Shown here piece by piece: positions 6,731-35,076 of a stretch of 37,298 nucleotides of DNA. The notes below the pieces were generated by a model. That model had not been told where the DNA came from. It did not search any database and saw only the letters and a list, made by a program, of their open reading frames with translations. Every line of letters starts with the position of its first letter. The first letter of the stretch is position 1. The position numbers were made by a program, and so were the translations under genes. The DNA lies in NCBI RefSeq assembly GCF_025210435.1, contig NZ_JAOART010000066.1, positions 1-37,298 of the forward strand, in the 5' to 3' direction. This stretch comes from Anaeromicrobium sp. GTDB taxonomy: Bacteria > Bacillota > Clostridia > Peptostreptococcales > Thermotaleaceae.

Positions 6731-8182
6731 ATGGAAAATTGCAAAGAACATAATGTATTTATTTCGTATAGTTGGACATCAAAGGAGCATGCAACATGGG
6801 TCCGTAATTTGGCAGAAAGATTACTGGATGATGGAATAGAGGTTAAACTTGATCAATGGGATTTGAAACCAGGGAATGACAAATATGCTTTTATGGAAAG
6901 TATGGTTCAAGATGAAAGTATTGATAAAGTATTGATTGTTTGCGATTCTAAATATAAGGAGAAAGCAGATGCAAGAGATAAGGGAGTAGGAGTTGAAACT
7001 CAAATTATAACCCCAGAAATATACAACAAAACTACTCAACAGAAGTTTATACCTATTGTAGCAGAGGTAGGAGAAGAATTTGATTCGCACATGCCAAGTT
7101 ATCTTAAAGCTAGAATAGGAATAGATATGTCTTCTGAGGATAAATATGAGGAAGGTTATGAACAATTATTACGGTTAATATATGACAAACCTCAGTTTAA
7201 GAAACCATCCAAGGGCAAACCACCAGCTTTTTTATTTGAAGATAAAAATACTCATTTTAAGACATCAAATTTAAACAAACAATTAAAGCACTTTTTGATA
7301 GATAAGCCTAATCAAGCTGATTATGTAATAACCCAATTTATTGAGGAGTTTTTAGTATCCTTAGAACAATTCACAATAGAAAGCAAAGATTTTATAAAGC
7401 CATATGATGAACAAATCTATATAAACATTGAAAAAATGTTAGATTTAAGGAATGACTATATTAACTTCTTATCGATGCTTTGCAAGCTTAAAAAGCATTT
7501 TGACATAGATATAATAATTAATTTATTTGAGGAGTTATATAAGTTTACTGAATTTCAAGGAAGTGGAACATTTTATGATATACAAACTGATCACTATAAA
7601 CTTTTTATAAATGAAATTTTCTTATATACGACAGTAATATTAATAGAAAATGAAATGTTTGAAAAATTAAATACTATCTTATCAACAAAATATTTTGTAA
7701 AGTCCAAATATGATTATTATGAAAATGGAGCATCGTTCACAAGATTTAGATTTTATATTGCTTCACTAGATGAAGGTAGAAAAAAAAGATTGAATAGTAA
7801 TAAAATCAGCATTACAGCTCAACTATTAGTTGATAGGAGTAAGGTAAATGGAAAAGATTATAAGGAAAATCTATTAGATGCAGATTTATTATTACACTAT
7901 ATATCGGATATAAAGAATAAAGAGGACAGTGGCTATGGAAGGTGCTGGTTTCCAACAACTTATGTATATAAGGGATATAGAAAAATAAATTTATTAAAGA
8001 AAATAGTTAGGAAAAAGCATTTCGATAAAGTCAAATTATTATTTAATGTTGACAAATCAGAAGATATGAAAGAATTAGTAACTAATTATAAAGTAGCTTA
8101 TCGAGGTTATGATTCATGCTTTGAAAGCATACCAAATATATCCAACTATATAAATGTAGATGAGATTGCGAAATATGAATAA
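6731..8182 (+). CDS. SEFIR/TIR-domain protein with uncharacterised C-terminal region
   Basis: SEFIR domains are bacterial relatives of TIR domains. Related bacterial TIR proteins act as NAD-cleaving enzymes or nucleotide-signal makers in anti-phage immunity. Residues 8-125 carry the SEFIR signature: VFISYSWTSKEH strand, then DGIEVKLDQWDLKPG, then VLIVCDSKY, and GVGVETQII, in which Glu89 is the candidate catalytic acid. Residues 170-483 are mostly helical, soluble and unrecognised, with no membrane segment; they are presumably the sensor or oligomerisation part. SD GGGGGCG at 6718-6724. The gene stands alone behind a palindrome and before a 408-base gap, then a membrane protein gene. A defence role is inferred from domain type. 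Confidence 0.85.
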   Translation: MENCKEHNVFISYSWTSKEHATWVRNLAERLLDDGIEVKLDQWDLKPGNDKYAFMESMVQDESIDKVLIVCDSKYKEKADARDKGVGVETQIITPEIYNKTTQQKFIPIVAEVGEEFDSHMPSYLKARIGIDMSSEDKYEEGYEQLLRLIYDKPQFKKPSKGKPPAFLFEDKNTHFKTSNLNKQLKHFLIDKPNQADYVITQFIEEFLVSLEQFTIESKDFIKPYDEQIYINIEKMLDLRNDYINFLSMLCKLKKHFDIDIIINLFEELYKFTEFQGSGTFYDIQTDHYKLFINEIFLYTTVILIENEMFEKLNTILSTKYFVKSKYDYYENGASFTRFRFYIASLDEGRKKRLNSNKISITAQLLVDRSKVNGKDYKENLLDADLLLHYISDIKNKEDSGYGRCWFPTTYVYKGYRKINLLKKIVRKKHFDKVKLLFNVDKSEDMKELVTNYKVAYRGYDSCFESIPNISNYINVDEIAKYE

Positions 8183-10104: not shown

Positions 10105-10383
10105 ATGCAGATAATAAATATTGATTTTGATAAATATGATAAGGAACTGTTGGAATTATCTTTTATGCCTAAACAGCAGAGGGATAGAGAATATTTAAAA
10201 GTGGCAGTAGACGAATTAACAGAAATTAGAGATGGATACATAAAAGAGTATGGTATTACTGCTGAATTATTAAGATTAGAAGAAAGAATATTGAATTATG
10301 CAATCTCTTTAAAAGAAGCAGAAGGAAAAGATTTTTTAGCAGAAAAGAAATCATTAGAATTTTTAATGACTCTTAAATACTAG
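10105..10383 (+). CDS. Small hypothetical protein, 92 aa
   Basis: A strong SD (GGAAGGAGG) precedes the ATG. The product is acidic, soluble and predicted helical, with two helices (about 25-50 and 53-75) and no recognisable motif. It has its own terminator at 10384 and stands alone before the structured leader of the next gene. Function unknown. Confidence 0.6.
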   Translation: MQIINIDFDKYDKELLELSFMPKQQRDREYLKVAVDELTEIRDGYIKEYGITAELLRLEERILNYAISLKEAEGKDFLAEKKSLEFLMTLKY

Positions 10384-10414
10384 AGGTTCGGTCGTATTTG
10401 ATCGAACCTTTTTT
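10384..10414 (+). terminator. Terminator after the 92-aa gene
   Basis: AGGTTCG and CGAACCT pair across a 12-base loop, followed by TTTTTT. Confidence 0.9.
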
Positions 10415-10530
10415 AGTTGTAGTGTTTTCAAATATGAATCATAATGCTAGTGCTTGTATATATAGGTTATATAAAACGTATATAGGCGAGTGTATTGAAT
10501 TTACTGTGTTATAACTTTGTAGATAATTCT

Positions 10531-10724
10531 TATAATATATCAATACGAAAAAGCCCCTGAAATTTGCGACAATTTCAGAGGCATAAGAGGAAGTCATTGA
10601 ATATTAAATTTTTGTTTTTACCTTAGTATTATAACAGTTAAAAGCAAAAGTATTACTAAGATGATGTCGAATGACTTCCTAATCGTGTTTAACTATCAAA
10701 ATGCGAAAAAGGAGGTCATTTTTT
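10531..10724 (+). promoter_or_regulatory. Promoter and leader with alternative SD-sequestering folds
   Basis: A -10 box TATAAT at 10531-10536 (no clear -35) would give a leader of about 180 nt. Three segments compete. AGGAAGTCATT (10588-10598) pairs perfectly with AATGACTTCCT (10670-10680), reinforced inside by CTTAGTA (10622-10628) with TACTAAG (10654-10660). The middle segment AATGACTTCC (10670-10679) can instead pair with GGAGGTCATT (10711-10720), which contains the SD, with one G-U. The first fold frees the SD and the second hides it. A further hairpin (10553-10582) is the terminator of the opposite-strand RNA. Confidence 0.7.
10548..10621 (-). ncRNA. Putative antisense RNA, about 74 nt, controlling the leader
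   Basis: On the minus strand an extended -10 box TGTTATAAT lies at 10636-10628, giving a start near 10621. The RNA ends in a terminator: 12-base arms (10582-10571 and 10564-10553, one mismatch), loop GTCGCA, then five T at 10552-10548. It is complementary to the first leader segment (10588-10598). Binding there would free the middle segment to cover the SD and shut off translation. This is the logic of antisense copy-number control in several Gram-positive plasmids. The -35 box is poor; expression is untested. Confidence 0.6.
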
Positions 10725-12191
10725 ATGGATAAATATGTAATAGAAGAAAGAGATAATATTTATGTTCTACACAATCTTGTAAAATCAACTCAAAAGACAA
10801 TAAAAAAATATATGTTTTTTAATAGATATAAAGAATTTGGATTTAAAAGCAAAGATGATTTTATTTTTAATTATATCCAGAAAAATATTACAACAGAGCA
10901 GAGGGAAAAAATAGACGAATTGATGAAACAGGAAAATAAGCTAATTGGATATAAGAGAAAGAAGTCAAACGAAAAGAAGATGAAAATCAGAGAAGAGATA
11001 AAAGAAAAACATGGAAATTTACTATACAAAGAAAGAGAAAAACTTGTAAAAAGAGCTTCAAAGAATCCTAGTGGTAGAGCTATACGAATGAGATTGTTGA
11101 AAGATTTGAAAGATGATGAGATAAAAGCTTTAAAGAGAAAGTTAAAATTAAAAAAGAAAGATATAAAGGATATTATAAAAAAAATAGAAATAGATGAGGA
11201 TGAATTTGAAACCATTCAAGAAGTATATAAATATTTTGGAGGTATGGTTGATCCGATGGATTATATAGAGGGTCTTAAAATAAATTGGATGGATTGTTCA
11301 ATTATTAAGGGAAACACGGCTCTTATATCAATCTATAATGATAAATATAAAATTTTAAGTTCAAATTTAAAGAAAGAGGAATGCTTGGCATTTGACTTAA
11401 TTGATTTATTTGGATTATACAACATAGATATCTTTCAGATTATAGAAATGAAAGAGTTAAAGGTAAAAGGATATGAACAAATAAAGGCAGGACAGAAAAA
11501 ATTAGAAGATGAGAGAAAGAGATATAAAAAAATGATTAAAGAAATACAGAGTAAAAAAATAGGTAATAAATATCCTAAACTTAGTAAATATCTAAAAAAC
11601 ATAATAGATGTCTATATCAAGCTATTGGAGAAAGGAATTGAAAATATAAATCATACAGGACAATTTTTAGGAGATAAGGGCATATATTTTGTTTCTATTA
11701 GGGATTTGGTTAAATTATTTAATGATGAAGGAATCAAAATAGAGAAGAGCAGTGTTTGTAACAAGATTAATCTACTGTGCTGTCTAGGACTTATAGAGAA
11801 GGTTTTTGCTTGGAGTCTTCCAGTAGCGTTAATACCTGATGATAAAAAGGTTTACAAAGCTAAAGATTGGTATGATAATAATTATTTTATTTTGCCAAAG
11901 GTAGATTTTAAAGAAGTGGAGAAAATAGCTTTAATCTTAAAAGAAAATAATATCACATTAAGAAATTTCAACAAGAAAACAGTAGAGGAAGTTTTTGGAC
12001 AAGATATGGTAGATAGAATATTTCAAAAGACTAAAAAAGAGAATGATAAGGAATTTGAAACAAAAATAGAAGAATTTAAAAATGGAAATAAAGAAATAGA
12101 GAAAGTAGATACGATAGAAAGTGATATGGAAACAGATGGATTTTCTACGATTTCAGCAGATGAAGTAGAATGCGATTTATTTGATTTTTAA
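10725..12191 (+). CDS. Putative replication/maintenance protein with winged-helix-like segment, 488 aa
   Basis: The true start is ATG 10725, 9 bases after SD GGAGG (10711-10715); the in-frame ATG at 10701 lies before the SD. The protein is very basic and Lys-rich in its first 180 residues, with long helical or coiled stretches. In the last third a winged-helix-like pattern appears (VSIRDLVKLFNDEG, then SSVCNKINLLCCLGLIEKV). The final 60 residues are acidic. It contains no polymerase, helicase or recombinase motif I can name. A Rep role is inferred from the antisense-controlled leader, basic composition and single-copy position. A transcription factor or an RNA-binding protein remain alternatives. 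Confidence 0.5.
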   Translation: MDKYVIEERDNIYVLHNLVKSTQKTIKKYMFFNRYKEFGFKSKDDFIFNYIQKNITTEQREKIDELMKQENKLIGYKRKKSNEKKMKIREEIKEKHGNLLYKEREKLVKRASKNPSGRAIRMRLLKDLKDDEIKALKRKLKLKKKDIKDIIKKIEIDEDEFETIQEVYKYFGGMVDPMDYIEGLKINWMDCSIIKGNTALISIYNDKYKILSSNLKKEECLAFDLIDLFGLYNIDIFQIIEMKELKVKGYEQIKAGQKKLEDERKRYKKMIKEIQSKKIGNKYPKLSKYLKNIIDVYIKLLEKGIENINHTGQFLGDKGIYFVSIRDLVKLFNDEGIKIEKSSVCNKINLLCCLGLIEKVFAWSLPVALIPDDKKVYKAKDWYDNNYFILPKVDFKEVEKIALILKENNITLRNFNKKTVEEVFGQDMVDRIFQKTKKENDKEFETKIEEFKNGNKEIEKVDTIESDMETDGFSTISADEVECDLFDF

Positions 12192-12268
12192 TAAAAAGAG
12201 CTTTTTGTAAAAAATATTTTTGAAAAATTGTTATATATAAAAAGCTTGTAATTAAGTAATAGAGAGGA

Positions 12269-12553
12269 GTGTATACCATTCTTAAAGATGAAAATGTTGG
12301 ACAATATATACCTAATAAAAGATTAGTAATGTAGTTTCTGAAATAAAGAAAACAGCACATTAAGAAGAAGAGAATATTATTTAAACGTAATATTAAAATG
12401 CAGATGAGAAATTGCAAGAGAACTACATTACACGGCATTAATTGTATTAAATTATTTATTGATAAACAAATTTCTATATATGCCTATTTGGGTGATAATC
12501 ATATTAATTGGGCATTTCTTCTAAGGATGGTAGTTAATTTATATATTGATTAA
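12269..12553 (+). pseudogene. Possible decayed ORF with two internal stops
   Basis: From GTG 12269, preceded by GAGAGGA, one frame runs 94 codons with only two stops (TAG 12332-12334, TAA 12344-12346) in a region where random AT-rich frames would show many more. Phrases such as ENVGQYIPNKR look protein-like. It may also be chance. The rest of 12192-12949 holds the structured patch at 12622 and a small ORF at 12744. Confidence 0.25.
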
Positions 12554-12621
12554 ATAGTTCTAAAAAACATTATAAGTAGATTATTAAAGAAGATAGTATT
12601 CTAAAAATCAAAAGAGCTAGA

Positions 12622-12680
12622 GGCTAAAAAATGCTAACTTGGTGGAATGCTCTGAGCGGCCGATGGCTACTTTTTTAGAA
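12622..12680. other. GC-rich structured patch of unknown role
   Basis: CTAAAAAA (12624-12631) pairs with TTTTTTAG (12671-12678), enclosing 39 bases that are far richer in G and C than the surroundings. The enclosed part contains the near-palindrome GCTCTGAGC and GCC-GAT-GGC. It fits neither a plain terminator nor a tRNA. A structured RNA, a recombination or nick site, or a replication-related site are possible. Confidence 0.35.
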
Positions 12681-12743
12681 ATTAAAACAAACAAGCTTTT
12701 ATTTACCTTTTAAAGCCTTAAAAATATATACAGGAGTATTATT

Positions 12744-12869
12744 ATGCCTTTCAAGTTTAAATGTATTCTAAAGGCTATTAGAAGCTTTTATAAACTAAAT
12801 AGAAGAGTGAATACAATAATGTTATTCTCTGGAAGTGTTGATTTTACTGAGGTTATAAGACATAATTAA
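12744..12869 (+). CDS. Possible small basic protein, 41 aa
   Basis: ATG 12744 follows AGGAG by 7 bases, a good ribosome-binding site, and opens a 41-codon frame with a basic first half. No homology is recognised and the length permits chance. It lies just ahead of the membrane and secreted protein cluster. Confidence 0.35.
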   Translation: MPFKFKCILKAIRSFYKLNRRVNTIMLFSGSVDFTEVIRHN

Positions 12870-12949
12870 ATTAAAAATATTATTATATTTTAGTTTACTT
12901 TATCTATAATAATATTAGAACTATAAATAAATGAGAGGAGGTCAAAAAG

Positions 12950-13681
12950 ATGAAGATTTACAATCCTTTTAAAGTAGATATTCCAGACAATGAACTAAGA
13001 TCTACTTACAACAGAAATCGAGTTGAAAGTTCTTTTAACAGAGAGTTGGGGATAATTCAAGCAATAGAGAACAAGATGAATTGGATTTTAATAGGTTACG
13101 TGATAATTGCGTATGCATTGATGAATAACCTATTTATAACACATCTGATTATAAGCTTTACAGCAGTTACAATCCTATATGGGGTATTATATAAGATATT
13201 TACGAACTCAGATGGAGTGTATTCTGTAACGAACTTTTTCATAAAGCAAAATATCTATTATACACCGATTAATAGCTTATTAACACATGCACCAGTGAGG
13301 AAGCTGGTATCATTAGCCGTATTACTACATCTTGGAGAAAAACTATATTTTACAAATTTCTACAAATTGTATTTTGGGGATTTTCCAGCACACACATTGT
13401 CCATATTAGTTTTGTTTGTAATAATACAGCTAGATTTTCATTTTAATCATTTGAAGAGATATCAAAAATTGAGCAGTATGCTTCAAGAAGCCGAAGAATT
13501 AGAGCAAAAGCAATATAGTTTAATGGAGCAAACAGATGAGGAAAGGGAACGTATACAAGAAGAAATAGAGAAATATATAGCTAAAAAATCTACAACTAAA
13601 GTTATAGAATTCAAAGCAAAAGCAGTTAAGAGGAGAAAACGAAATATAAATACACAAAATATAAAAGATGAAAATAACTAA
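12950..13681 (+). CDS. Membrane protein with coiled-coil C-terminus, 243 aa (surface/transfer cluster)
   Basis: SD AGGAGG precedes ATG 12950. After a hydrophilic N-terminus of about 45 residues come two closely spaced spans (about 47-85), another hydrophobic segment near 118-135, and a span near 150-167. A charged helical segment (172-220) and a basic tail (KRRKRN) follow. Small multi-span proteins with cytoplasmic coiled coils occur in Gram-positive transfer systems, but no named family is recognised. The stop is followed within 30 bases by the next start, so it probably forms an operon with the secreted protein at 13708. Confidence 0.6.
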   Translation: MKIYNPFKVDIPDNELRSTYNRNRVESSFNRELGIIQAIENKMNWILIGYVIIAYALMNNLFITHLIISFTAVTILYGVLYKIFTNSDGVYSVTNFFIKQNIYYTPINSLLTHAPVRKLVSLAVLLHLGEKLYFTNFYKLYFGDFPAHTLSILVLFVIIQLDFHFNHLKRYQKLSSMLQEAEELEQKQYSLMEQTDEERERIQEEIEKYIAKKSTTKVIEFKAKAVKRRKRNINTQNIKDENN

Positions 13682-23202: not shown

Positions 23203-24298
23203 AAGCGAATTGAAAAAGATAGCTAGAGAATTTAGAATGTATGGCTCAAGACTATTATCTACAAAATATGGCAATGGTCTGGGTGACTTAAGCAGGTTCT
23301 TAAATTTTATAGAATCTAATGATGTGATATATAAATTTATTCAAGAAAATAATAAAGAAAGCTACGATATAGAAGAAATTTGTAGAAACAGAGGTTGGAG
23401 AAATAAATATCCTCTGCCAATAGAAAAAAACAAAGAAATAGCCTTTATATATCAGTTATTAAAGTATGGATAAGCTAATTTTGGTGACTATATACCATTT
23501 ACTCATGGGTATGGTTCAGGTAACAAATTTCAAGATCATATGGATGCATTTAACAATGAAGTTACTAAACATCTAATTGATTATATAAGAGAGTATTTAG
23601 AAGATGTAATTATAGATATGGAAGAAAATGAAGAAGAGCAAATTGATTCAAGTAAGGTATTTATCTCTTATTCATGGACTAATAAAGACATTGCTGATAT
23701 GATAGATGAAGATTTTAAAGGATTAGGGATTGACTTAACCAGAGATGAAAGAGATCTAAAATATAAAGATAGTATCAAACAATTTATGCAACAAGTAGGG
23801 AAACATGACTATGTTATTATGATTATTAGTGACAGTTACTTAAAGTCAGAGAATTGTATGTATGAAGTAATGGAGGTCATGAGAAATCGAGAATATAAGA
23901 ATAAGATACTTATGATTATATTAAAGGATGAAGATAAAAGATATTTTAAAGATTATGAAGAAAGAATTAAAAATGACCAAGAGTTTAGTAACTTAGCTAT
24001 AGGAGCTGACATTTATTCTACAACAGGTAGAATAAGCTATATTGAATACTGGGAAAGAAAAGAAGAAGAACTAGAAAGCTCTATTGCTAGAATTAAAACT
24101 GAGATTAATAAAATTCAGCCATTAAATGAGTTGAAACGGATAAACAACATTACTAGAGATATTGGAGACTTTTTAACTGAATTAAGTGATTGGATGAGTA
24201 TACCGTTAAAAGAGTTGAAAGAATCTGATTATAAGCCTTTGTTAGATGATATGAACATTTCTGAAGAGAAAATGGTGGTGAATAACACTGGTTTATAA
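23192..24298 (+). pseudogene. TIR-domain protein gene interrupted by a single in-frame TAA
   Basis: ATG 23192 opens a frame that stops at TAA 23471-23473 after 93 codons. The same frame continues without any stop from 23474 to 24298. The product would be 367 residues plus the interrupted codon. The joined text (KYG, stop, ANFGDYIPFTHGYG, then FQDHMDAFNNEV) reads as one helical N-terminal domain, then a TIR domain at about 155-270 (VFISYSWTNKDIADM, VIMIISDSYLKSENC). Glu near position 225 (in MYEV) is at the catalytic place of TIR NAD-cleaving enzymes. ATG 23540 could restart translation of the TIR part, but no SD precedes it. A gene coding for a cell-suicide type effector may be inactivated, read through, or mis-sequenced. 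Confidence 0.75.
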
Positions 24299-24556
24299 CA
24301 ATAAAATGCCACAAAACATACAACACTTATTGATGGAAATAGGAGAAAATCTGCTTTATTTATACTATTTCTATTAACTAAACTATATCCAAATTGTAAG
24401 GTGTTTCAGAATTTAAGTGGTGTAGGGTATGATATTCTTTTTATTAACGGAAAGCAAGAAGTTAAAATAGAAGTTAAAACGAGATAAAGATTATATATGA
24501 TTTCTAATGAAAATAAAAGAAAATAGCTAAATTTACTGTAACAAAAAATAAATTAT
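24298..24556 (+). pseudogene. Decayed copy of the PD-(D/E)XK-like gene at 34552
   Basis: The sequence aligns base by base with the first half of the intact gene at 34552-35016; blocks such as ATACAACA, GATGGAAATAGG and GGATATGATATT-like stretches correspond. A one-base deletion in the GAAAATCTG region shifts the frame, and CAA has become TAA in the ACGAGATAAAGA stretch. The right half is missing. It begins directly after the TIR stop codon, with no start signals of its own. Confidence 0.8.
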
Positions 24557-24560
24557 TAAG

Positions 24561-24588
24561 AGACACTAATAAAATTTAGTGTCTTTTT
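24561..24588 (+). terminator. Terminator after the TIR region
   Basis: AGACACTAA and TTAGTGTCT pair around a 6-base loop with five following T. Confidence 0.9.
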
Positions 24589-24660
24589 GTTATAATCATT
24601 TGGAAATTGGCATAATTTGGAGGTATAATATAGATATTAACCTGAAGAGGAGGAGCATTA

Positions 24661-25347
24661 GTGTATTGTCATAGCTGTGGTGAGAAAATAGTTGATGAAG
24701 GGTATAAATTTTGCCCAAAGTGTGGGGCAAACTTGGTTAAAGGTATTTCTAAAAGTCAATCTATTAACACTGGTAATAATAGTGTTAATATTGGAGGAAA
24801 TGGGGATAACCATCAGTATCACATTGATAATATAAATTATAATGTAGATAATCAACAGAACTATATTAAATATAATATGGATAAGATTAAAAAAATACCG
24901 TTAGATATTAAAAAAGCATCTATGTTTAGTGGATTTGTAGGACTAATAGGTTTTATTGGAAGCATAGCATCTGTTGTAAGCTTATTTAAAGACTTTACAG
25001 CATTAAGAAGTAATTCATGGATACCATATGTGACCTCATTGTCTATGTTATTAGGATTTGGATCGCTATATATATTAGGAACTCTTAAAAAACAAGGGTT
25101 TAAGGGAGTAAACACTTTTTTAGGTGATTTTTTATTTTTACTGGATAAAGAAGGAAAAGTTTCTTTAATTAAAGCGTATTCAGATTGTCCTGAATGTGAT
25201 GGGAAAATTAATGTAATAAAACTAAAAAATAGTGAAAGGTATATTGGTGTTTGTAACAAAAATTCTGAACACGCTTTTAGTTTCGATTACACAAATTTTA
25301 CAGGGAAACCAGTTGCTATACAGGAATTTGAATTTAAAATTTCTTGA
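24661..25347 (+). CDS. Zinc-ribbon membrane protein, 228 aa, likely frameshifted near its end
   Basis: GTG start 24661 after SD GAGGAGGAGC. An N-terminal zinc ribbon (Cys 3, 6, 18, 21) is followed by an Asn/Gly-rich linker (30-70), two membrane spans (about 88-109 and 120-141), and a C-terminal metal site (Cys 176, 179, 198, His 204). After the four-A run at 25336-25339 the present frame ends within three codons. Dropping one A lets it continue 41 residues (FLENEEIIFKLGM and on) to TAG 25460-25462, which looks like the native end. Membrane-tethered zinc-ribbon proteins with such linkers occur among bacterial conflict genes; the exact role is unknown. Confidence 0.7.
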   Translation: MYCHSCGEKIVDEGYKFCPKCGANLVKGISKSQSINTGNNSVNIGGNGDNHQYHIDNINYNVDNQQNYIKYNMDKIKKIPLDIKKASMFSGFVGLIGFIGSIASVVSLFKDFTALRSNSWIPYVTSLSMLLGFGSLYILGTLKKQGFKGVNTFLGDFLFLLDKEGKVSLIKAYSDCPECDGKINVIKLKNSERYIGVCNKNSEHAFSFDYTNFTGKPVAIQEFEFKIS

Positions 25348-25628
25348 AAATGAAGAAATAATATTTAAGCTTGGCATGAGTATTATAGGAGAGTGTAAAT
25401 TAAAAAGAAATAGCAAGGAAGTAATTTACAGAGCTTTAATAGTTGTCGGGATTATACATTAGTATGACAATAAACAGTAGTGTTATACAATATATGGTGA
25501 AAAAATTATATTATATACTATATATTGACAAATACAATAGATAAGAATACAATCTAATTAGCATTTTATGGATATATATTATGGATAAAAATTCAGAAGA
25601 GGATAAGAACTACAAGGGGGAAACTGAA

Positions 25629-26183
25629 ATGAAAAAGAACTTTGCACAAAGATGTGACGTTTTTAAGAAGAGAAGTGACATACTATACCAATTAGTTGAT
25701 GATTTAAGTGAAAGAATTATTATATCTGATTTGACTAAAGCGTTAGGGGGCTCTATTCAAAAAGGGGATAATTTAATTTCAAATGCTAAATTTGAAGAAA
25801 TACGAATAGAGGGTTCAACGTTCAATTTAATGAATAGGAGCAAAAGTATATATAAAGCTTATGTTTTGCATTTGGAGAAAGAATATAATTTTCCATACCT
25901 TGGATTTAAATATAAAGGGGAAATAGTATCTCCACACATAGAAGGTCAAGCGGATAAGTTAATAGAGAAATATAGTGAGGCGGAACTCGTTGAGATTGTA
26001 AATGAGATTGAAACTAGAATTGAAGCTATTAATAATGATATAGAGTATTTAAAAGCTAATACTGATTTGAATAACCATAAATTCTACTATAGGAATTATG
26101 ATGGTCTATTTGATGGGAATGAAAAATATATAGATTTAAAATCAGTATTTAATGATTATGAATTATTGATAAATTCTAAATAA
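25629..26183 (+). CDS. Hypothetical protein, 184 aa, upstream of the HD/Hsp90-type gene
   Basis: The start is ATG 25629, 8 bases after SD AAGGGGG (25614-25620); an in-frame ATG at 25581 precedes that SD. The protein is soluble, helical and charged, with coiled-coil tendency at about 110-145 (ELVEIVNEIETRIEAIN) and no recognised motif. The gap to the next gene is 161 bases, so membership in the HD/Hsp90 unit is possible but not shown. Confidence 0.55.
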   Translation: MKKNFAQRCDVFKKRSDILYQLVDDLSERIIISDLTKALGGSIQKGDNLISNAKFEEIRIEGSTFNLMNRSKSIYKAYVLHLEKEYNFPYLGFKYKGEIVSPHIEGQADKLIEKYSEAELVEIVNEIETRIEAINNDIEYLKANTDLNNHKFYYRNYDGLFDGNEKYIDLKSVFNDYELLINSK

Positions 26184-26344
26184 CATAATGTGAACTGTCG
26201 TAATTATATACTTTAGCAAAAGATTAGTATAGTGTATAGGAGCGTGTAATCATTTATTGTAGCTTTATCAGATTCATTAACTGTTACAATTTTTGATTAT
26301 TATTAATTTCTTAAATGTTTTGTTTAAGAGAAAGGGGATAACAG

Positions 26345-26779
26345 TTGCAAAGACAAATTGATGGTTATACATTTAAATGTGAGATGTCTAAGAATAGACA
26401 TAGGGAATATAAAGTTACTTGTTTGGAAAATGGAATAACAAAAGAGAGTGGAATAAGTTTTGATGATGCAATAGGATTAATTAAAGGAATAATTGACTGT
26501 AATACATATCAGCTGTCACAGAAAAGTTCAGATATAGAATATGTTAGAAGCCTGTTTGAGGATAAGTTAATTGGCGAAAAGTTATCAAAACTTGATGATA
26601 TAATTAAAGAAGAAATAGCTGGAAAGATAAAGGGCACGATTTATTCTATACCTCGTCAGAAGATGGCTATTGAACAGATATATAAGACTGATAATTTTGT
26701 TATCACGGCAAAATGTGAAAAAGGAAAAGCAAGAGGTGTTACATCAATTGATATTAGTGAGAAAAGCAAAATATATTGA
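26345..26779 (+). CDS. Hypothetical protein, 144 aa, next to the HD/Hsp90-type gene
   Basis: TTG start 26345, 6 bases after GGGG of the SD AAAGGGGATAAC; no better ATG lies nearby. A compact alpha-beta start (GYTFKCEMSK, YKVTCLENG) is followed by helices. The gene ends 31 bases before the HD/Hsp90-type ATPase gene, and both have good SDs, so the two are probably one operon. Family not recognised. Confidence 0.55.
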   Translation: MQRQIDGYTFKCEMSKNRHREYKVTCLENGITKESGISFDDAIGLIKGIIDCNTYQLSQKSSDIEYVRSLFEDKLIGEKLSKLDDIIKEEIAGKIKGTIYSIPRQKMAIEQIYKTDNFVITAKCEKGKARGVTSIDISEKSKIY

Positions 26780-26810
26780 AATCCTATGAAGTATACTAGG
26801 GGGATAAAAA

Positions 26811-29495
26811 ATGAAAGAAATAAAAATACCAAAAGTCTTTGATGAGAAACTTAAAAGCGGTTATAAAGGAGATATTTTAGTTATATTTGATAAATACAAG
26901 AATTTTCTTTTAGAACAAATGCCTCTGTTTGCGGAGTATACGGATCATTCAAATGAACATATACAGTATGTGTTAGATACAGGAGAAAAATTAATCACCA
27001 AGGAATGTTGGAAGGTATTAACAAGTGAAGATATATTTGTATTGTTATTAGCTATTTTATTTCATGATTTAGGTATGCACATATCAATTGAAGGGTTTAA
27101 AACATTATTAAGATCAGGGAATATAATTGAGAGTTATGATACAAAATCTTGGAAAGAAGAATGGGAAAAATATATTAATGAGGTTAGCAAATATGATGAA
27201 GAAAAACAACGAAGATTTTTCAATCAATCATATATGAACATAAAGGACAAACAAGAATTTGAAACACTAGGGGAAAATGAGAAAGAACTAATAGGAGAAT
27301 TTATTAGAAGGCAACATGGAAGACTAGCACATGAGATTGCTATATATGGATTTCCAGTAAGAGATGATAATTTCGAAAATTATAATGAAAAAAAATATAT
27401 ACATCTATATGATTTGGCTGGTTTTATAGCTAGAAGCCATTCTATGGACTTAAGGGAAACATACCCATATTTACAGGATAAATATTTCGATGTATGGAAG
27501 AGACCTTATAAAGTGCATGTGATGTTTTTAATGGTAGTATTAAGGGTATCAGATTATTTACATATAACTAATGATAGAGTAAATCCTTATAAATTCAAGC
27601 TGATTAAATTTAAGAATGAAATGTCTATTTTGGAATTTAAAAAACATCTATCTGTTTATGATATTCAACAAGTCATAGATAATCCAGAAAATTTATTTGT
27701 AACATGTAATCCGAATGAATTGAAAACTTATCTGAGCATGGAAAACTTAATTAATAGTATACAGAATGAACTGGATAATTCTTGGGCTGTCTTAGGAGAA
27801 GTCTATGGTATTAGTAAATTAGGGATTGCGATAAGACGAATTGATAGTAATATATTTAAAAAACAATGGCTAGACAAATCAACATATGTAACAGAAGATA
27901 TTACTTTTAAGCTAGATTCTAGACTGAAAAATTTACTTATAGAACCATTATATGGAGATAATCCATCGTATGGAGTTCGAGAGTTAATTCAAAATGCAGT
28001 AGATGCTTGTAAATCAAGAAAAAATAGGAGTTCTAAGATTGATATTGAATTAGAAGGAGATTATTTAATTATAAAAGATAATGGAATAGGTATGGATATT
28101 GATATAATAAAAAACTATTTCTTGAGTATAGGGTCACCATTTGTAGAAAGTTCGCAATGGAAAGAAGTTAATAATGATAAAGATATAGTGAGAAATGGTA
28201 GGTTTGGGATTGGTATTTTGTCGAGTTTTTTATTAGGTGATAAGATAGAGGTAACAACTTATAAAAAAAGTGATAAAAGGAATAAAAATGAAAAATATGG
28301 CTATGTATTTAAAATTGTAAAAACCGTTAGTGAAATACCAATATATAAGAAAAAGTATGAGGAATTAGAAAATATTATAAGTGATGGTTCAGGAACACAA
28401 GTTAAAATTTTATTAAAAGAGGAAGTTAAAAAGAGTTTAATTAATAACAATATTATAATTGATCAATGGTATAAGATGTCTGATGTGGATTTTCAAATAA
28501 ATATACAAAATTACAATGAAGATAGCAATAAAATAAATTTCGAAGAGGAAAATTGGAAGGAACTATATTGTAATGAATTTAATAAAGTTAGGTGGACGTA
28601 TGATTATAAAATTGATCCTCTAAAGTGGAAAAGTGAAAAAAGTGAGGAGTATAGTTCTGTATTAAGCCCAAATTTGATTTGCAATGGAATAATAATACCT
28701 GAAAAATATGATTTGAATTTAGAAAATGTTTTTATAAAGAATTGGCCAATAATTCATATTGATGATATGAGTGGTAGTTTAGAATTAGATTTAAGTAGAT
28801 TTAAGGTAACCAAACCTCTGCCATTTTTAAAAGAATTAGAAGAGCAGTTGTTGGAGGATTTTTTTCAGGAATTAAATGAAATGAAAGTTTTAAATACGAA
28901 AACTAATAGAATTACTTTAAAAGAAATTGTTACAAACAACTTCAAAACTCAAGAACTAATGTTTTTTAAAGACGGATACACATTATATAATGACTATATA
29001 ATTGAAAAAATGAATCCTAAATGGGTTGTGGAAATATGGGATACTTCTCTCAATGTAGATTGGCTAGAAGAGAATGTAGCATACATTTTACATGGATATA
29101 GAAGCCATCCAAATTTAAAATATGAGCTTTATGAAAGAAAAATTAGAAATACAAACATATACATACCTTCATATAATTACAATGTTTATATGAATGATGG
29201 TAGTAGCTATTATAAGTTTAGAAATGACTATAAAGATAGAATAAAATATTCAAGTAAAGAAATGCAAATAAAAGATTATGCAGTTATAAAAACTTGTGAG
29301 AACTTATTGATGAAAGAAAAACTTGAGCTGTATAAAAATCAAATACCATTGATTATTGAAGAAAGTTTTTCTAATTTCAAAGCCAATACATGTAAAAGGG
29401 AAAAAGAAATTATTGATAAGTATATTAATAAAAATTATTTATATCCGTATAATAACTCAAAACAAGTTTTGAGTTCGATATCAGTAGTTGGTTAA
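26811..29495 (+). CDS. HD-domain and Hsp90-type (GHKL) ATPase fusion, 894 aa
   Basis: Two catalytic modules are joined. Residues about 40-260 carry HD-phosphohydrolase marks: DHSNEH (45-50), LFHDLGMH (83-90), RRQHGRLAHE (166-175) and LRVSDYLHI (244-252). Residues about 365-545 carry the GHKL ATPase set: N-box ELIQNAVDA (391-399), DNGIGMD (423-429), glycine box GRFGIGIL (463-470) and DGSGTQV (525-531). The remainder, 545-894, may be a middle domain with an Hsp90/MORC-like role, but its family is unclear. HtpG-like proteins lack HD domains; fusions like this are seen among putative defence ATPases, so nucleotide-dependent hydrolysis of a nucleotide or nucleic acid is likely. SD GGGGGA precedes ATG 26811. 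Confidence 0.85.
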   Translation: MKEIKIPKVFDEKLKSGYKGDILVIFDKYKNFLLEQMPLFAEYTDHSNEHIQYVLDTGEKLITKECWKVLTSEDIFVLLLAILFHDLGMHISIEGFKTLLRSGNIIESYDTKSWKEEWEKYINEVSKYDEEKQRRFFNQSYMNIKDKQEFETLGENEKELIGEFIRRQHGRLAHEIAIYGFPVRDDNFENYNEKKYIHLYDLAGFIARSHSMDLRETYPYLQDKYFDVWKRPYKVHVMFLMVVLRVSDYLHITNDRVNPYKFKLIKFKNEMSILEFKKHLSVYDIQQVIDNPENLFVTCNPNELKTYLSMENLINSIQNELDNSWAVLGEVYGISKLGIAIRRIDSNIFKKQWLDKSTYVTEDITFKLDSRLKNLLIEPLYGDNPSYGVRELIQNAVDACKSRKNRSSKIDIELEGDYLIIKDNGIGMDIDIIKNYFLSIGSPFVESSQWKEVNNDKDIVRNGRFGIGILSSFLLGDKIEVTTYKKSDKRNKNEKYGYVFKIVKTVSEIPIYKKKYEELENIISDGSGTQVKILLKEEVKKSLINNNIIIDQWYKMSDVDFQINIQNYNEDSNKINFEEENWKELYCNEFNKVRWTYDYKIDPLKWKSEKSEEYSSVLSPNLICNGIIIPEKYDLNLENVFIKNWPIIHIDDMSGSLELDLSRFKVTKPLPFLKELEEQLLEDFFQELNEMKVLNTKTNRITLKEIVTNNFKTQELMFFKDGYTLYNDYIIEKMNPKWVVEIWDTSLNVDWLEENVAYILHGYRSHPNLKYELYERKIRNTNIYIPSYNYNVYMNDGSSYYKFRNDYKDRIKYSSKEMQIKDYAVIKTCENLLMKEKLELYKNQIPLIIEESFSNFKANTCKREKEIIDKYINKNYLYPYNNSKQVLSSISVVG

Positions 29496-29573
29496 AAGTA
29501 GTTGTTTATTTTAGAATATTACATAGGTGTATATGAAGCTTAGTCATATGGATAAGAAAGGAATTAATAATAC

Positions 29574-29602
29574 AAAAGACACTTATTTCAAGTGTCTTTT
29601 TA
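29574..29602 (+). terminator. Terminator after the HD/Hsp90-type gene
   Basis: AAAAGACACTT and AAGTGTCTTTT are perfect arms around ATTTC, followed by more T. Confidence 0.9.
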
Positions 29603-29650
29603 AGTAAATTCAATATTTTTAGGCTACAAAAGAAATTTTATAATAAAGTG

Positions 29651-29730
29651 AAGATTGGCAAGCTTATTAATAAATAATTAATCAAGAAACCTCTATCCGC
29701 TTATATAAAGGGAGTGATGGGTTAGTTATT
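29651..29730 (+). repeat. Decayed copy of the tail and terminator of the gene at 21358
   Basis: The run from AAGATTGGCAAGCTT to GGGTTAGTTATT aligns with 21755-21828 (end of the 138-aa gene and its terminator), with many substitutions. No coding part before this is recognisable, so only the 3' end survives. It suggests that a paralogue stood here. Confidence 0.6.
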
Positions 29731-29950
29731 ATCTAGGACCAATAAATCTATCACCGTTCATATGTATTATGTGTTCAGGCATATCGGCAATCCAGATTTC
29801 ACTTTCACAAGCAATATAATCAGCATATTTTTTATAGGTTTTAATATCTAAAAAACAGCTCACATAGATAGAATGATTTGAGTAGAAAAGAAATTTTAGA
29901 ATATACAAAAACGTATGTTCTGTATAATTAATTGACAGATTTGTTGGGAA
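29729..29950 (-). pseudogene. Reverse-strand C-terminal gene remnant
   Basis: On the minus strand a frame of 73 codons without a usable start runs from 29950 to the TAA at 29731-29729. Its second half is clearly protein-like (YKKYADYIACESEIW, then HIIHMNGDRFIGPR before the stop). The first half is AT-rich and may be random. It is the best-supported reverse-strand coding remnant in the window. I cannot name the family; the parent gene has lost its beginning. Confidence 0.55.
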
Positions 29951-30002
29951 TTATTACAATTATATTAAAATCAAAATTAATATAAAAAAATGAGGGAGTT
30001 AT

Positions 30003-30209
30003 ATGAATTTAAATGATATTTTGAACCCATCCACTATAATAGGAGCTTTGTTAATAAGCATTATCGGAGGATTTATAGTGTTCTTTTTCACTAAAGATGA
30101 TAACCAGTCTAAAAAGAATAGTATTAAAACGAAAGATAATCATGGATTTATTTTTCAGGATACTAAAATAGAGGGGGAATTTAATGTCAAGTCAAAAAAT
30201 AAAGAATAG
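30003..30209 (+). CDS. Small single-span membrane protein, 68 aa
   Basis: SD GAGGGAG precedes ATG 30003. One membrane span (about 13-29) is followed by a charged linker and the tail KTKDNHGFIFQDTKI. The last 26 bases overlap the next gene, so translation is coupled. The tail shares the pattern Asn-x-Gly-Phe/Leu-Ile followed by Gln with the start of the next protein (RDNFGLIAQNSNL), which suggests a common interaction motif. It looks like the membrane anchor of a small multi-protein system. Confidence 0.65.
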   Translation: MNLNDILNPSTIIGALLISIIGGFIVFFFTKDDNQSKKNSIKTKDNHGFIFQDTKIEGEFNVKSKNKE

Positions 30210-31518
30210 AGACAATTTTGGACTGATAGCTCAAAACTCAAATTTGGCATTTAATTCTTATAATTATGATTTAATGAATTCTATATCAGAATTATTAAGT
30301 GAAGGAAAAATAGATGAGGCTATAGATTTATTAAATAACTTAAGAAAATCGGTAGTAGGACACCATCCTTTATACCCTTATTATTCTACAGAAATTGAAA
30401 ATAGAAATGGAAAGTTGGTATTTGTAAGTAAACCTAATTCAAGAGAAGCTATTGAAAAATATCCTCCACGATATGTAGGGAAGATAACTATACCAAAAAA
30501 ATATAAACATTTTTCTTCTATAAATGAATTGATAACTTATTCATATAGAAATCAAGAAGATATAGAAATAAATGTTAAAGAGGTTGGAAGAGTTTTAGGT
30601 GATGTTGTTGATCCTTATCAAGAAGATATATTTAGTCCTGAAAATATTCAAAATATGAAATATAAAATAGAACATAAAGAGTTTCCTCCAGCAAGACCTT
30701 ATAAAATTATATTCTCAAATAGTAAATTCACAATGGATTATGTATTGTTAAGGGTTATGAAAATTACTGATAAAGGTGAACTAATAATAAGTAATGCTGA
30801 GCAGGATACAAGATTATACTTTGAAATGAAAATGGATACTCAGAATAAGAAATGTAATTTCAATTTAGAAGTCAATGAAAAATATAAAAGAGATGTAACA
30901 GCTAATTTAATGTGTATATCTTTTATGACGAGTAAGAAGAAAGAAAATGAAATAAAAATTATTTCTCTAGAATATGGAGAAGAGCTTATAAACGGATTAC
31001 TGGATAATCTTAGTTATAATTCTGATTTTGGAGATGTAGAAAAGGAAAAAAAGTTTCTTGAAAATTTGAAAACAATAGAAGATTTTTATGATATGAAAAT
31101 CGAAATACCTGATGAGGTATTTAATTATGATATGAACAATGCAGAAATTCTAGCAGAGGGAATAAAGAATAAAAAAGTTAGTGGAAAATTTACTAGATGT
31201 AAAATAGAATTTAAGATTAACAAGAAATTTAAAGAGGATACGATTAAACTATGTAATAATAATGAAGCTTTTTCATTAACTTATGAAATGATAGATGTAA
31301 GTATTAGTATATTTGGACAAGCATTTGAAATTGGTAAAGTAATAAGACGATTTGGTAAAGTGAAAATAGCAGATAGTAAAAAAGTAATGAAAAAATTAGA
31401 AGTGCTAGAAATAGGAGATAAGATAAGTATTCGATATGCACCAGCAGATAAAGAAGTAGGTGAATGTATTGATGAGCTATGCTTTGATTTAAAAAACATA
31501 GAGGAAGATATTGAATAG
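30184..31518 (+). CDS. Hypothetical protein, 444 aa, second gene of a membrane-linked trio
   Basis: SD GAGGGGG lies in the previous gene and the two overlap by 26 bases. The N-terminal segment (RDNFGLIAQNSNLAF) echoes the tail of the upstream membrane protein. Next comes a helical stretch (SELLSEGKIDEAIDLLNNL, about 36-55) with a TPR/EAD-like look, then a large predominantly beta, soluble region to residue 444. No catalytic motif seen. The third gene follows 9 bases later. It may be the sensor of the set, by analogy with effector-associated proteins; function unknown. Confidence 0.6.
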   Translation: MSSQKIKNRDNFGLIAQNSNLAFNSYNYDLMNSISELLSEGKIDEAIDLLNNLRKSVVGHHPLYPYYSTEIENRNGKLVFVSKPNSREAIEKYPPRYVGKITIPKKYKHFSSINELITYSYRNQEDIEINVKEVGRVLGDVVDPYQEDIFSPENIQNMKYKIEHKEFPPARPYKIIFSNSKFTMDYVLLRVMKITDKGELIISNAEQDTRLYFEMKMDTQNKKCNFNLEVNEKYKRDVTANLMCISFMTSKKKENEIKIISLEYGEELINGLLDNLSYNSDFGDVEKEKKFLENLKTIEDFYDMKIEIPDEVFNYDMNNAEILAEGIKNKKVSGKFTRCKIEFKINKKFKEDTIKLCNNNEAFSLTYEMIDVSISIFGQAFEIGKVIRRFGKVKIADSKKVMKKLEVLEIGDKISIRYAPADKEVGECIDELCFDLKNIEEDIE

Positions 31519-31527
31519 GGTGAAAAT

Positions 31528-32229
31528 ATGGAAAAATGGATTACAATATTAATTATCGTATGTATTTGTGTCATTGGTATTATAAAGATAATATTAGAGC
31601 ATAGAAGACTATCAAGCAAAAGAGATTTTTCAATTGAATTTACTAATAAATATAGAGAATTTTGTGATGAATTATTTGAAAAGAATATAGATGGAGAGTT
31701 GTATCAATGGCTTAGAATGAAATCAGCTAAAATGCAAAATATGATGGGACGATATGGTGTTACAAGTATGTTTCAGCCACCATTTTCAACTATAATGTAT
31801 CAAAACTATCCAATAATATATAATGGTTTATCAGAAATTATGAAGGAGTATTCGTTATCACGAAATTTATTTAGCAGAAGCTTCTCTTTTGATGATAATT
31901 TGGGGCAGTTAATTAGAATGATAGATGATAGCTTAGTAACATATATTGGGGTTTTAGAAAACTCTGAAGAAAATATGAATTCCAAAATAAAGAATCCGAT
32001 AGTATGGCTTAGGGAAGGTATAAGATTTTTGGTAGTATTACCTATATCTTTCGTGTATTGGTCTGGACTGATAAAATATCATACATATAATAGGTTATCA
32101 GATAATTTCTTTGTAAAGATAATTGCTATGTTTATAACATTGATTGGGTTGATTAGTTCTGTAATTACTATTATATTAGGGTATGAACCTTTGATTGATA
32201 TTTACATTAAAATCAAAGATATTTTTTAG
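31528..32229 (+). CDS. Membrane protein, 233 aa, third gene of the trio
   Basis: SD AGGGTG precedes ATG 31528, 9 bases after the previous stop. One N-terminal span (about 5-23), a cytoplasmic helical region with Arg-rich and Tyr-rich parts, and two C-terminal spans (about 168-185 and 193-217) are visible. A candidate membrane effector acting with the two genes before it. Family not recognised. Confidence 0.6.
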   Translation: MEKWITILIIVCICVIGIIKIILEHRRLSSKRDFSIEFTNKYREFCDELFEKNIDGELYQWLRMKSAKMQNMMGRYGVTSMFQPPFSTIMYQNYPIIYNGLSEIMKEYSLSRNLFSRSFSFDDNLGQLIRMIDDSLVTYIGVLENSEENMNSKIKNPIVWLREGIRFLVVLPISFVYWSGLIKYHTYNRLSDNFFVKIIAMFITLIGLISSVITIILGYEPLIDIYIKIKDIF

Positions 32230-32281
32230 TTGTAAAGGAATGGATATATAGGAATTGATAAAATCAAAGGGGGGTAGTGAA

Positions 32282-32713
32282 ATGAGGATTGTTAAAATGT
32301 CTGGGGATGTATTTGGATTTGATAGTATTGAGGCTTGTAAAGCATACTTTGAAAATGTCTTACCTTGGCAAAGGGGGAATTTTTATTTTGTAGGAGAAAG
32401 AAATAAAATAGCTAAAGATAAATTAAATACAGGGGAAAATGTAGTGTTTTCATTTAATGGCTGTTTAATAGCAATAGCAAAAGCTAAAAGTTTAATTATT
32501 GATGAAGATGATAAGGCTAGTGGAATTAAAATAGATATGGAAACGCTAAAGATGTTTAAAATAACAATTTCTACATTAGAACTAGAAGAAGAATTAAGAA
32601 ATAGTGGATTTAACGATTCTATCTATGCAAGTCAAGGTTGGAACATTTTAGAAGGAGAAATTGAAAGGAAAACAGTGGAATTTTTGAAAAATAAAGAATG
32701 GGAAATATATTAA
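32282..32713 (+). CDS. PUA/EVE-like small protein, 143 aa
   Basis: The start is ATG 32282, 7-8 bases after SD AAAGGGGGG; an upstream in-frame TTG at 32255 precedes the SD. After an N-terminal part, the phrase GENVVFSFNGCLIAIAKA matches the central strands of PUA/EVE/ASCH-type nucleic-acid-binding folds (G-D/E-x-V-hydrophobic, then I/A-A-K-A). Similar proteins read modified bases or RNA. The neighbouring gene 27 bases later encodes a PD-(D/E)XK-like protein, so together they may form a modification-sensing nuclease pair. Confidence 0.5.
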   Translation: MRIVKMSGDVFGFDSIEACKAYFENVLPWQRGNFYFVGERNKIAKDKLNTGENVVFSFNGCLIAIAKAKSLIIDEDDKASGIKIDMETLKMFKITISTLELEEELRNSGFNDSIYASQGWNILEGEIERKTVEFLKNKEWEIY

Positions 32714-32740
32714 CATTAGTATTTAAGGATGATGAGAATA

Positions 32741-33169
32741 ATGGCAATAAAAGAACAACAAGCTTTCGATGGAAAATCAGCAGAACATATGGTTATCACA
32801 GAACTTTTAAAAAGAAATTATGTCCCTTTTATTCCAGTTTTGGATAGAGGAATAGACCTTTTGGTAAAGTCAAAAACAGAAGAAAAATATTATGAAATAC
32901 AGGTGAAATCCAATAATTCTCCAATAGAAAAAAATCAGAAATGGTTTATATTTAGTGGAGAGCTTCAAGTAAGAAAAAATCTAATATATGCTCTTGTAGA
33001 TATGATAAATAATGAGATTTGGATAGTTCCTTCAGAGATAGTGAAAAAATATGGGAATCAATGCAAAACACAATTTGATTTACACTTGAAGCAACGAAAA
33101 AGAGGAGATGAAAAAAGAAGAGGCGAACATTTAGAACCTTATAAAAATAACTGGAATATATTAAGATGA
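32741..33169 (+). CDS. PD-(D/E)XK-like nuclease-fold protein, 142 aa
   Basis: The start is ATG 32741; ATGs at 32729 and 32732 are too close to the SD-like AAGGA (32725-32729). The helix GKSAEHMVITELLKRNY leads to the strand pair VLDRGIDLLV and YYEIQVKS. Asp39 with Gln54/Lys56 (or Glu52) form a D-(E/Q)xK set. Such small proteins are known as group I intron-type or restriction-related PD-(D/E)XK nucleases. The C-terminal 40 residues are very basic and may bind DNA. It follows the PUA/EVE-like gene and precedes an unknown 247-aa gene. Confidence 0.65.
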   Translation: MAIKEQQAFDGKSAEHMVITELLKRNYVPFIPVLDRGIDLLVKSKTEEKYYEIQVKSNNSPIEKNQKWFIFSGELQVRKNLIYALVDMINNEIWIVPSEIVKKYGNQCKTQFDLHLKQRKRGDEKRRGEHLEPYKNNWNILR

Positions 33170-33215
33170 TATAAACATATTAATGATTCTTATGTTCAGA
33201 AGTGGAGGTAATTGA

Positions 33216-33959
33216 ATGAAATATGATAATATACTAATTCCTTTTGTAAGAAAAAACAATCAATATATAGATACTCAATTTGGCTTTATAATTCAGCCTA
33301 TGCATGGATATAAAATAGGGATTAATGCAGGATATATTATAATGAGTAGTGATCCTTCTCTAAAGGCAAATATCTTTTTTAGATTCTTTAAAGTAGGTGG
33401 GGATAAGGATTTTTATGAATATAGAGGACAAGTCATATCCATACAAGATTTGAAGAATATTTCTTATGAAAACTTTAATTTGGTAAATAATCTTGTTTTT
33501 TCAACGATTAATCAGTTTTATAATCCACAATGTTGTATTAGTAGCACCCAATATAATTACTTGATTGAAGTGATAGAGTATATTGATGCTATAAGCTTTA
33601 ACTGTGGTTTTGATAATAGGTCAATAACAAAAGATTATGAGACACAGGTGGGTTATGAAGGGAAAGTAGCTATTAATACTTTCACTGAAGGTAGAGGAAA
33701 AAGTATTGATGAAATTGTTAGAATGTTAAAAAATGAATATGGATTATCTAAAATGACAAGGAATATTTATAAGTTTTTTTTAAGTAATAAAGGACTTAAT
33801 TATTTGATAAGTAGGATAATAGGAAAAAAAGAAACCGATATCTTTGCTACTGCTAATGGAGGGCGTGGCTATAGCAATAACACAACATATTTATTTAATT
33901 CAATTTATAATCAGAGTGAGATAGAGGAACTCAGGCGTCTATGTGGTGGTTTGAGATGA
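33216..33959 (+). CDS. Hypothetical protein, 247 aa, between the nuclease genes
   Basis: SD GTGGAGG precedes ATG 33216. Mixed alpha-beta, no membrane span or signal. Visible traits are an N-terminal aromatic-rich part (GFIIQPMHGYKIG), a middle with CCISSTQYNYLIEV, and a C-terminal basic part with Gly-rich GGRGYSNN. No catalytic motif is evident. It sits between a PD-(D/E)XK-like gene and a PUA/EVE-like gene in a row of closely spaced genes, so it may belong to the same defence or modification-sensing system. Confidence 0.6.
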   Translation: MKYDNILIPFVRKNNQYIDTQFGFIIQPMHGYKIGINAGYIIMSSDPSLKANIFFRFFKVGGDKDFYEYRGQVISIQDLKNISYENFNLVNNLVFSTINQFYNPQCCISSTQYNYLIEVIEYIDAISFNCGFDNRSITKDYETQVGYEGKVAINTFTEGRGKSIDEIVRMLKNEYGLSKMTRNIYKFFLSNKGLNYLISRIIGKKETDIFATANGGRGYSNNTTYLFNSIYNQSEIEELRRLCGGLR

Positions 33960-33987
33960 TTTTGACTTTTGAAGGGGGAAAATATTC

Positions 33988-34386: not shown

Positions 34387-34411
34387 ATTTAAAGACTTAA
34401 AAGCTAATTAG

Positions 34412-34438
34412 GGATGCTCAACAGAGAGCATCTTTTCT
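34412..34438 (+). terminator. Terminator after the EVE-like gene
   Basis: GATGCTC and GAGCATC are perfect arms around AACAGA, followed by TTTTCTT. Confidence 0.9.
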
Positions 34439-34551
34439 TATATTAATGATTTAAAAACTTGTGGACTCACAAAATTTGTATTAATATGGTATATATTAGG
34501 CAATGAAAGAATCGAGTATTTTAATAAGATAGTAATAACGAAGGGAAGACA

Positions 34552-35016: not shown

Positions 35017-35076
35017 TTTTTACATAAGGATTATAATAATTTAAAGGGTGTTTTATAGAGAAGAGGGGGATGGAAA

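Follow-up and report, generated by a model that had tools for sequence, protein, structure and literature searches.

A putative antisense-controlled leader before the gene of a primase-related, Rep-like protein in Anaeromicrobium sp.

The leader of a gene for a 488-aa putative Rep protein in Anaeromicrobium sp. carries three segments that compete for pairing and, on the opposite strand, the predicted elements of a small antisense RNA. The gene lies on contig C18, whose full length of 37,298 bp was analyzed and is called the window here. Judged as sequence, this antisense RNA device is very likely real. A replication function of the protein is probable, and we give cautious preference to the combination of RNA device, replication function and attenuation mechanism. 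The features of the locus are as follows, with the basis for each in brackets.

10531-10536, plus strand: TATAAT, likely −10 of the rep promoter, without a good −35 (sequence)
10553-10582, plus strand: leader hairpin I at the 5′ end of the rep mRNA, antisense target loop (sequence, fold)
10588-10598, plus strand: segment 1, AGGAAGTCATT, pre-emptor or anti-terminator arm (sequence, folds)
10670-10680, plus strand: segment 2, AATGACTTCCT, arm common to both pairings (sequence, folds)
10669-10721, plus strand: SD-hiding, terminator-like hairpin 2:3, into the U run 10719-10724 (sequence, fold)
10710-10715, plus strand: SD AGGAGG of the putative rep gene, 9 bases 5′ of the ATG (sequence)
10711-10720, plus strand: segment 3, GGAGGTCATT, which carries the SD (sequence)
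10725-12191, plus strand: gene for the 488-aa putative Rep (ORF list, profile comparison)
10636-10628, minus strand: extended −10, TGTTATAAT, of the putative antisense promoter (sequence)
10621-10548, minus strand: predicted antisense RNA of 74 nt, with a 12-bp terminator hairpin and a 40-nt unpaired 5′ tail (sequence, fold)
10582-10548, minus strand: intrinsic terminator of the predicted antisense RNA (terminator scan)

The segments, the extended −10 and the minus-strand terminator agree in letters and coordinates with the original prediction, and segments 1 and 2 pair perfectly over 11 bp, as it had claimed. The pairing of segments 2 and 3 is also real, but its description had to be corrected. 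Instead of 10 pairs with one G-U, the helix has 12 bp with two G-U pairs (10669-10680 with 10710-10721), plus an 8-bp inner stem. Six U's (10719-10724) stand right before the AUG, three of them past the full 12-bp stem. Hairpin 2:3 is absent from the list of our intrinsic-terminator scan, whose rule requires an unbroken stem. The TATAAT at 10531-10536 fails the two-hexamer promoter filter.

Nested helices that compete with each other and end at the start codon occurred in none of 1,000 dinucleotide shuffles at a minimum helix length of 10, in two of 1,000 at a minimum of 9, and in none of 1,000 at a minimum of 8. The search at first allowed one G-U pair and missed the feature itself, because the 2:3 helix has two, and it was then loosened to two G-U pairs. 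Nested three-segment pairing was not found before the other genes of the window (0/30). At any position and on both strands, it appeared in 3 of 3,712 sliding windows, and these three overlap, all at the rep leader. The rep leader folds to −49.9 kcal/mol (z = −5.6). The 56 nt 5′ of the rep start codon alone reach −21.3 kcal/mol, versus −9.2 kcal/mol for the next of the 22 SD-bearing starts in the window, and a fold this low was seen for 1 of 185 starts from other contigs. Rfam gave no family at gathering score across the window. With E values up to 1, the region 10480-10780 matched a microRNA model alone, far below its gathering score.

Matches to the leader DNA on two other contigs of the same genome, C117 and C40, were set aside as short SD and start-codon likenesses 5′ of other genes. 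On C117 (L002, 1501-1600), an SD within a hairpin (GCACCTCCAAAT / ATTTGAGGTGC) was seen by eye 5′ of a start codon, and the first bases of that gene at its start codon are like those of the putative rep gene.

The original prediction had called for a minus-strand RNA of about 74 nt, complementary to segment 1 and with its own terminator. As a prediction from sequence and fold, this is supported. The RNA would cover segment 1, and its tail has the same 11 letters as segment 2. The minus-strand terminator consists of 12 pairs, five of them G-C, followed by five T's. Two terminator-like sites are present in the 421 bases from 10380 to 10800, where shuffles give 0.1; the second is located on the plus strand (10382-10411), 3′ of the upstream gene. 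All window ORFs of at least 140 aa are on the plus strand, so that a minus-strand terminator is not required by any listed gene of this length. On the other side, the whole window has 15 terminator-like sites, 7 of which belong to the minus strand, and therefore the minus-strand terminator alone proves little. Extended −10 motifs are common in the window (12 versus 6.8 expected), and the putative antisense promoter, which has a weak −35 and relies on the extended −10 alone, fails the two-hexamer filter. Promoter motif, terminator and segment 1 have the order and strand that fit an antisense RNA.

A further role, in which the antisense tail would act in trans by pairing to the SD 5′ of the gene starting at 12950, was considered and rejected, as it is not separable from chance with 22 window starts. 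The tail pairs with this SD over 14 bp (−21.9 kcal/mol, the best of 33 window starts), and the background of 185 starts reaches down to −21.1 kcal/mol. The SD word itself, GGAGGTCA (12937-12944), has three occurrences versus 0.23 expected.

Folds of the rep leader, which assume an mRNA start at about 10543, indicate how the segments may compete. In the growing chain, the minimum is the 1:2 pairing for transcript ends 10676-10716, and the 2:3 pairing from 10720 on. For the full-length leader, the 2:3 state has −49.9 kcal/mol versus −45.6 kcal/mol for the best state with 1:2 forced. When 10548-10622 is covered, as by the antisense RNA, 2:3 is fully formed and the SD is closed. The unpaired probability is about 0.00 for five of the six SD bases, in the free and in the antisense-covered leader alike, and the SD opens (0.68 to 0.88 unpaired) only when 1:2 is forced.

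These folds bear out one half of the switch first envisaged, the competing segment and the SD-hiding hairpin, and a lower-energy fold with a free SD, which the original prediction had named as evidence against itself, was looked for and not found. The other half did not hold, as the antisense RNA leaves the equilibrium fold unchanged. Whether or not this RNA is present, the SD-hiding fold has the lowest energy, and a purely translational equilibrium switch is excluded by this energy model. Since 2:3 is the minimum either way, the antisense RNA would act only during synthesis, and the decision must be kinetic. Such a kinetic decision fits attenuation plus SD masking.

In the mechanism that we propose, a constitutive 74-nt minus-strand RNA (10621-10548) would pair with the 5′ part of the rep leader. 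When the antisense RNA is absent, segment 1 would capture segment 2 (11 bp) in the growing transcript before segment 3 is made. With 1:2 formed, the RNA polymerase would pass the U run and a ribosome could start. When the antisense RNA sits on segment 1, segment 2 would be left free and fold onto segment 3. The resulting 2:3 hairpin, with its 12-bp and 8-bp stems, would hold AGGAGG and run into UUUUUU, where transcription would stop. In messages that are read through nonetheless, the SD would be hidden in the same hairpin. More copies of the element would give more antisense RNA, and more antisense RNA less protein. We infer both transcripts, the kinetics, and the respective shares of termination and SD masking.

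Other readings of the leader have to be weighed against this one. A chance pairing is highly improbable. AT-rich sequence forms many helices, and the initial test setting did not detect the feature and was loosened afterwards, yet the zero and two cases per 1,000 shuffles, the single place in 3,712 windows, the z of −5.6 and the lowest fold of 22 window starts all speak for a real structure. The leader might also act in cis, as an attenuator or riboswitch that needs no antisense RNA, and the minus-strand terminator would then be incidental. The surplus of extended −10 motifs, the lack of a −35 box and the 7/15 minus-strand share of terminator-like sites are what one would cite for it, but no Rfam family reached its gathering score in the window, and promoter motif, terminator and segment 1 follow each other in the right order and on the right strand, which makes this reading quite unlikely to us. 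Closer to our own reading is the same RNA device with SD masking as the main effect and little transcription termination, of the type known from pSK41. The SD is inside the 3′ arm and almost never free once 2:3 forms, only three U's are left past the full stem, and hairpin 2:3 is not in the terminator list. However, this hairpin (−21.3 kcal/mol) runs straight into six U's, and if the pairing is slow to change, equilibrium masking would take place without the antisense RNA as well. We consider a device that works mainly by masking unlikely, and keep attenuation together with SD masking as the preferred mechanism.

The protein encoded downstream of the leader is, by profile comparison, a shortened relative of a Bacillota family whose members combine a primase domain with a CHC2 zinc finger and a winged helix. 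Pfam, NCBIfam and PHROGs gave no match of note for the 488 aa. With Pfam E values up to 0.1, PF12655 was the only match, and no Rep_trans, PF06970 (RepA_N) or AEP domain was found. The kinship is indicated by alignments between profiles. A1, built from the short set, and A3, built from five long members, match with an hhalign probability of 100 (E 9.9e-43), and the window protein alone matches A3 with a probability of 97.7 (E 1.6e-12) over residues 153-435. Two regions can be delimited.

Residues 178-254: zinc-finger remnant (profile comparison)
Residues 255-440: winged-helix region (profile comparison)

Over residues 153-435 the window protein is homologous to PHROG_25531 and the AEP-CHC2-winged-helix primase-type proteins. 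Unlike this family, it is without an AEP domain, and its basic, helical N-terminal part is particular to it. Furthermore, the zinc ligands of A3 are C343, H346, C367 and C372, and the first alone has a Cys in the window protein (C191).

The winged-helix-like nature of the protein, already suggested by the original prediction, is supported. For the winged-helix model, RepA_N structures rank first, with a weak likeness, and Fur/Zur regulators follow at almost the same Z. We take 4pql to be a RepA_N structure. According to PMC7145576, 4pt7 and 5kbj are RepA_N structures. When solved structures were searched by sequence with A1 and A3, nothing better than E 0.06 was found. Foldseek, with either model or against BFVD, gave no match at E 0.001 or better, the best BFVD row being an uncharacterised Lactobacillus phage protein (E 0.022).

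Relatives of the protein are spread thinly over the Bacillota. Genomes with relatives found by A1 numbered 6/394 in the order, 11/391 in the class and 10/398 in the phylum, counts that include the own genome each time. On the genome-contig set, A1 found seven loci. A scan of genome contigs with the single sequence returned 94 stretches, none of which was confirmed as a close relative. No close relatives were found in phages, and no second copy in the same genome. With tblastn, relatives at 24-26% were found in five plasmid records at four different places, on Paenibacillus, Aneurinibacillus and Jeotgalibacillus plasmids of 360-722 kb.

Many of the relatives have 600-700 aa and a primase-type N-terminal part. 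RepB_primase matches were found for L022 (1.7e-4) and L032 (2.5e-4), both just below the cut-off, and a CHC2 zinc finger match above the cut-off for L025 (4.4e-7). PHROG_25531 matches went down to 4.7e-90 (L021). The short L024 has a "replication initiation O-like" match (7.8e-5) and adjoins a RecD-like helicase, and in L029 (1556-4849) one frame of 1097 aa encodes a fusion of the relative with a RecD2-type helicase. An AEP-type motif is present in 13 of the 41 family rows and the C-x-F-[HN] zinc motif in 17, and the 11 short rows, the window among them, have neither. A tree was computed from 31 of the 41 rows, excluding L045, L046 and segments shorter than 200 aa. With the labels long and short as assigned by us, it places the 11 short forms on one side of a branch with a support of 98/98. 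The branch of the window itself is long (2.8). We read this as a single event in which the catalytic part was lost and the winged helix retained.

Both types can occur in one genome. In Alkalithermobacter thermoalcaliphilus (G089), one contig of 1.86 Mb encodes the short, AEP-less L008 (6211-7575) and the long-type L025 (7088-8935), whose primase part is encoded by a frame of its own further upstream.

In the 400 nt upstream of the 41 family rows, none of the relatives showed the RNA device. Minus-strand terminator-like sites in the same 400 nt are limited to the window, L051, L043 and the internal fragments L032 and L046, and those of L051 and L043 are two-way, serving as plus-strand terminators too. 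In the Bacillales relatives L009-L012 and L028, GACTATA- or CTATAGTC-like words were seen by eye 5′ of the gene, possibly operators or other binding sites.

The name Rep, given by the original prediction, is backed in part. A remote kinship to primase and replication-initiation families and a weak likeness to the RepA_N fold support it, but there is no direct family match. That the protein initiates replication we likewise infer. No iterons worth the name were found before, in or after the gene, and no DnaA boxes at the locus; three DnaA-box-like sites are located elsewhere in the window, fewer than expected. Support for an initiator was also sought in the GC skew of the megaplasmids and failed in all four. 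On them, the distance between the relative and the cumulative GC-skew minimum is 53, 62, 178 and 128 kb, with the skew based on bins read for 71/72 (W03), 80/103 (W01), 80/145 (W02) and 80/121 (W04) and the rest interpolated. The gene of an initiator can also be away from its origin. RepA_N was not found in the four megaplasmids (0/4), but 0/14 control genomes matched either, so this comparison is uninformative.

The RNA device could be real and the protein still no initiator. It might instead serve a conjugative or integrated element as a regulator, or as an accessory DNA-binding protein derived from primases. Consistent with this are the distances from the skew minimum in four megaplasmids, the locus without iterons and DnaA boxes, the relatives in chromosomes (for example L008 and L025), and the Fur/Zur regulators among the winged-helix matches at almost the same Z as the RepA_N structures. 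The kinship to primase and replication-initiation profiles and the helicase-fused forms argue for replication instead. In addition, it is from rep genes that this kind of antisense control is best known, according to PMC5703833. On these grounds we regard a non-initiator as somewhat unlikely and continue to favor a replication protein.

The contig itself is likely a mobile element. C18 is one of 148 contigs of a draft genome, and its ends share no overlap. It encodes a VirD4/TraG-type coupling protein and a TrbL-like protein (Pfam), and its G+C content is 27.6%, versus 29.9-35.6% in 18 stretches of other contigs. A relaxase of PF03432, the one family searched, was not found in the genome, and neither was a clear VirB4. 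A PF12846 match was rejected as a conjugation partner, because in our reading it is an FtsK-like protein among housekeeping genes. For the left 20 kb of the window, plasmids gave no near match.

The window is also rich in genes of the defence type. A bSEFIR-type defence protein (PADLOC PDLC03957, E 4.9e-101; Pfam SEFIR) is encoded at 6731-8182, just upstream of the putative rep gene. A run of such genes at 23540-36414 includes a TIR protein (23540-24298), an HD-CE plus HSP90-like ATPase protein (26811-29495), an AbiGii-like protein (30184-31518) and a PIN_8 protein (35077-36414). The putative rep gene is followed by about 760 bases (12191-12950) without a plus-strand gene, after which the next gene starts.

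Taken to its full extent, our reading would describe a new replicon class, which we put forward only tentatively. Its initiator would be a catalytically dead, zinc-less descendant of an AEP-CHC2 primase with a winged helix, and its copy number would be set by an independently arisen antisense attenuator similar to those of pT181 and pSK41, with a message that can be started only if it is made before the leader relaxes into the stable off fold. If true, the same antisense logic would be found on unrelated replication genes, and copy control would be a module to be plugged in, not something that belongs to one Rep family. This reading would also give a testable function to PHROG_25531, which has none assigned, and to its AEP-less branch, which are present in Bacillota chromosomes and in large Bacillales plasmids without a named initiator at that gene.

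A literature search found no report of such an RNA device on this protein family. The parts of the device have counterparts in three plasmids, all compared here as PMC5703833 describes them. The closest in layout is pT181 repC with its RNAI and stem-loop IV, in which a pre-emptor holds off a terminator stem-loop that is directly 5′ of the start codon and contains the ribosome-binding site. The rep leader shares with it a predicted antisense RNA to an untranslated leader, the pre-emptor for the 5′ arm, and the SD-holding, terminator-like stem-loop directly before the start codon. Unlike pT181, the window protein has no Rep_trans match (Pfam up to E 0.1), and the predicted 74-nt RNA has one hairpin.

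In pSK41, the SD is sequestered without termination by an antisense RNA of about 83 nt. This RNAI is complementary to a leader stretch about 100 nt 5′ of the initiation region, and the stem-loop that it induces sequesters the ribosome-binding site, as we propose for the rep leader. The RNAI of pSK41 has two stem-loops, whereas one is predicted for the RNA of the window, and unlike the RepA_N protein of pSK41, the window protein has no PF06970 match up to E 0.1 and its sequence ties are to primases. The proposed antisense-induced terminator in the rep leader is reminiscent of RNAIII and RepR of pIP501. Family scans show no relation between RepR and the window protein, no Cop repressor was identified in our case, and the long leader of about 320 nt, described for staphylococcal relatives of pIP501, is not present. 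The leader described here is a variant, in which a known antisense logic is set before a gene of a family for which our literature search found no earlier report of it.
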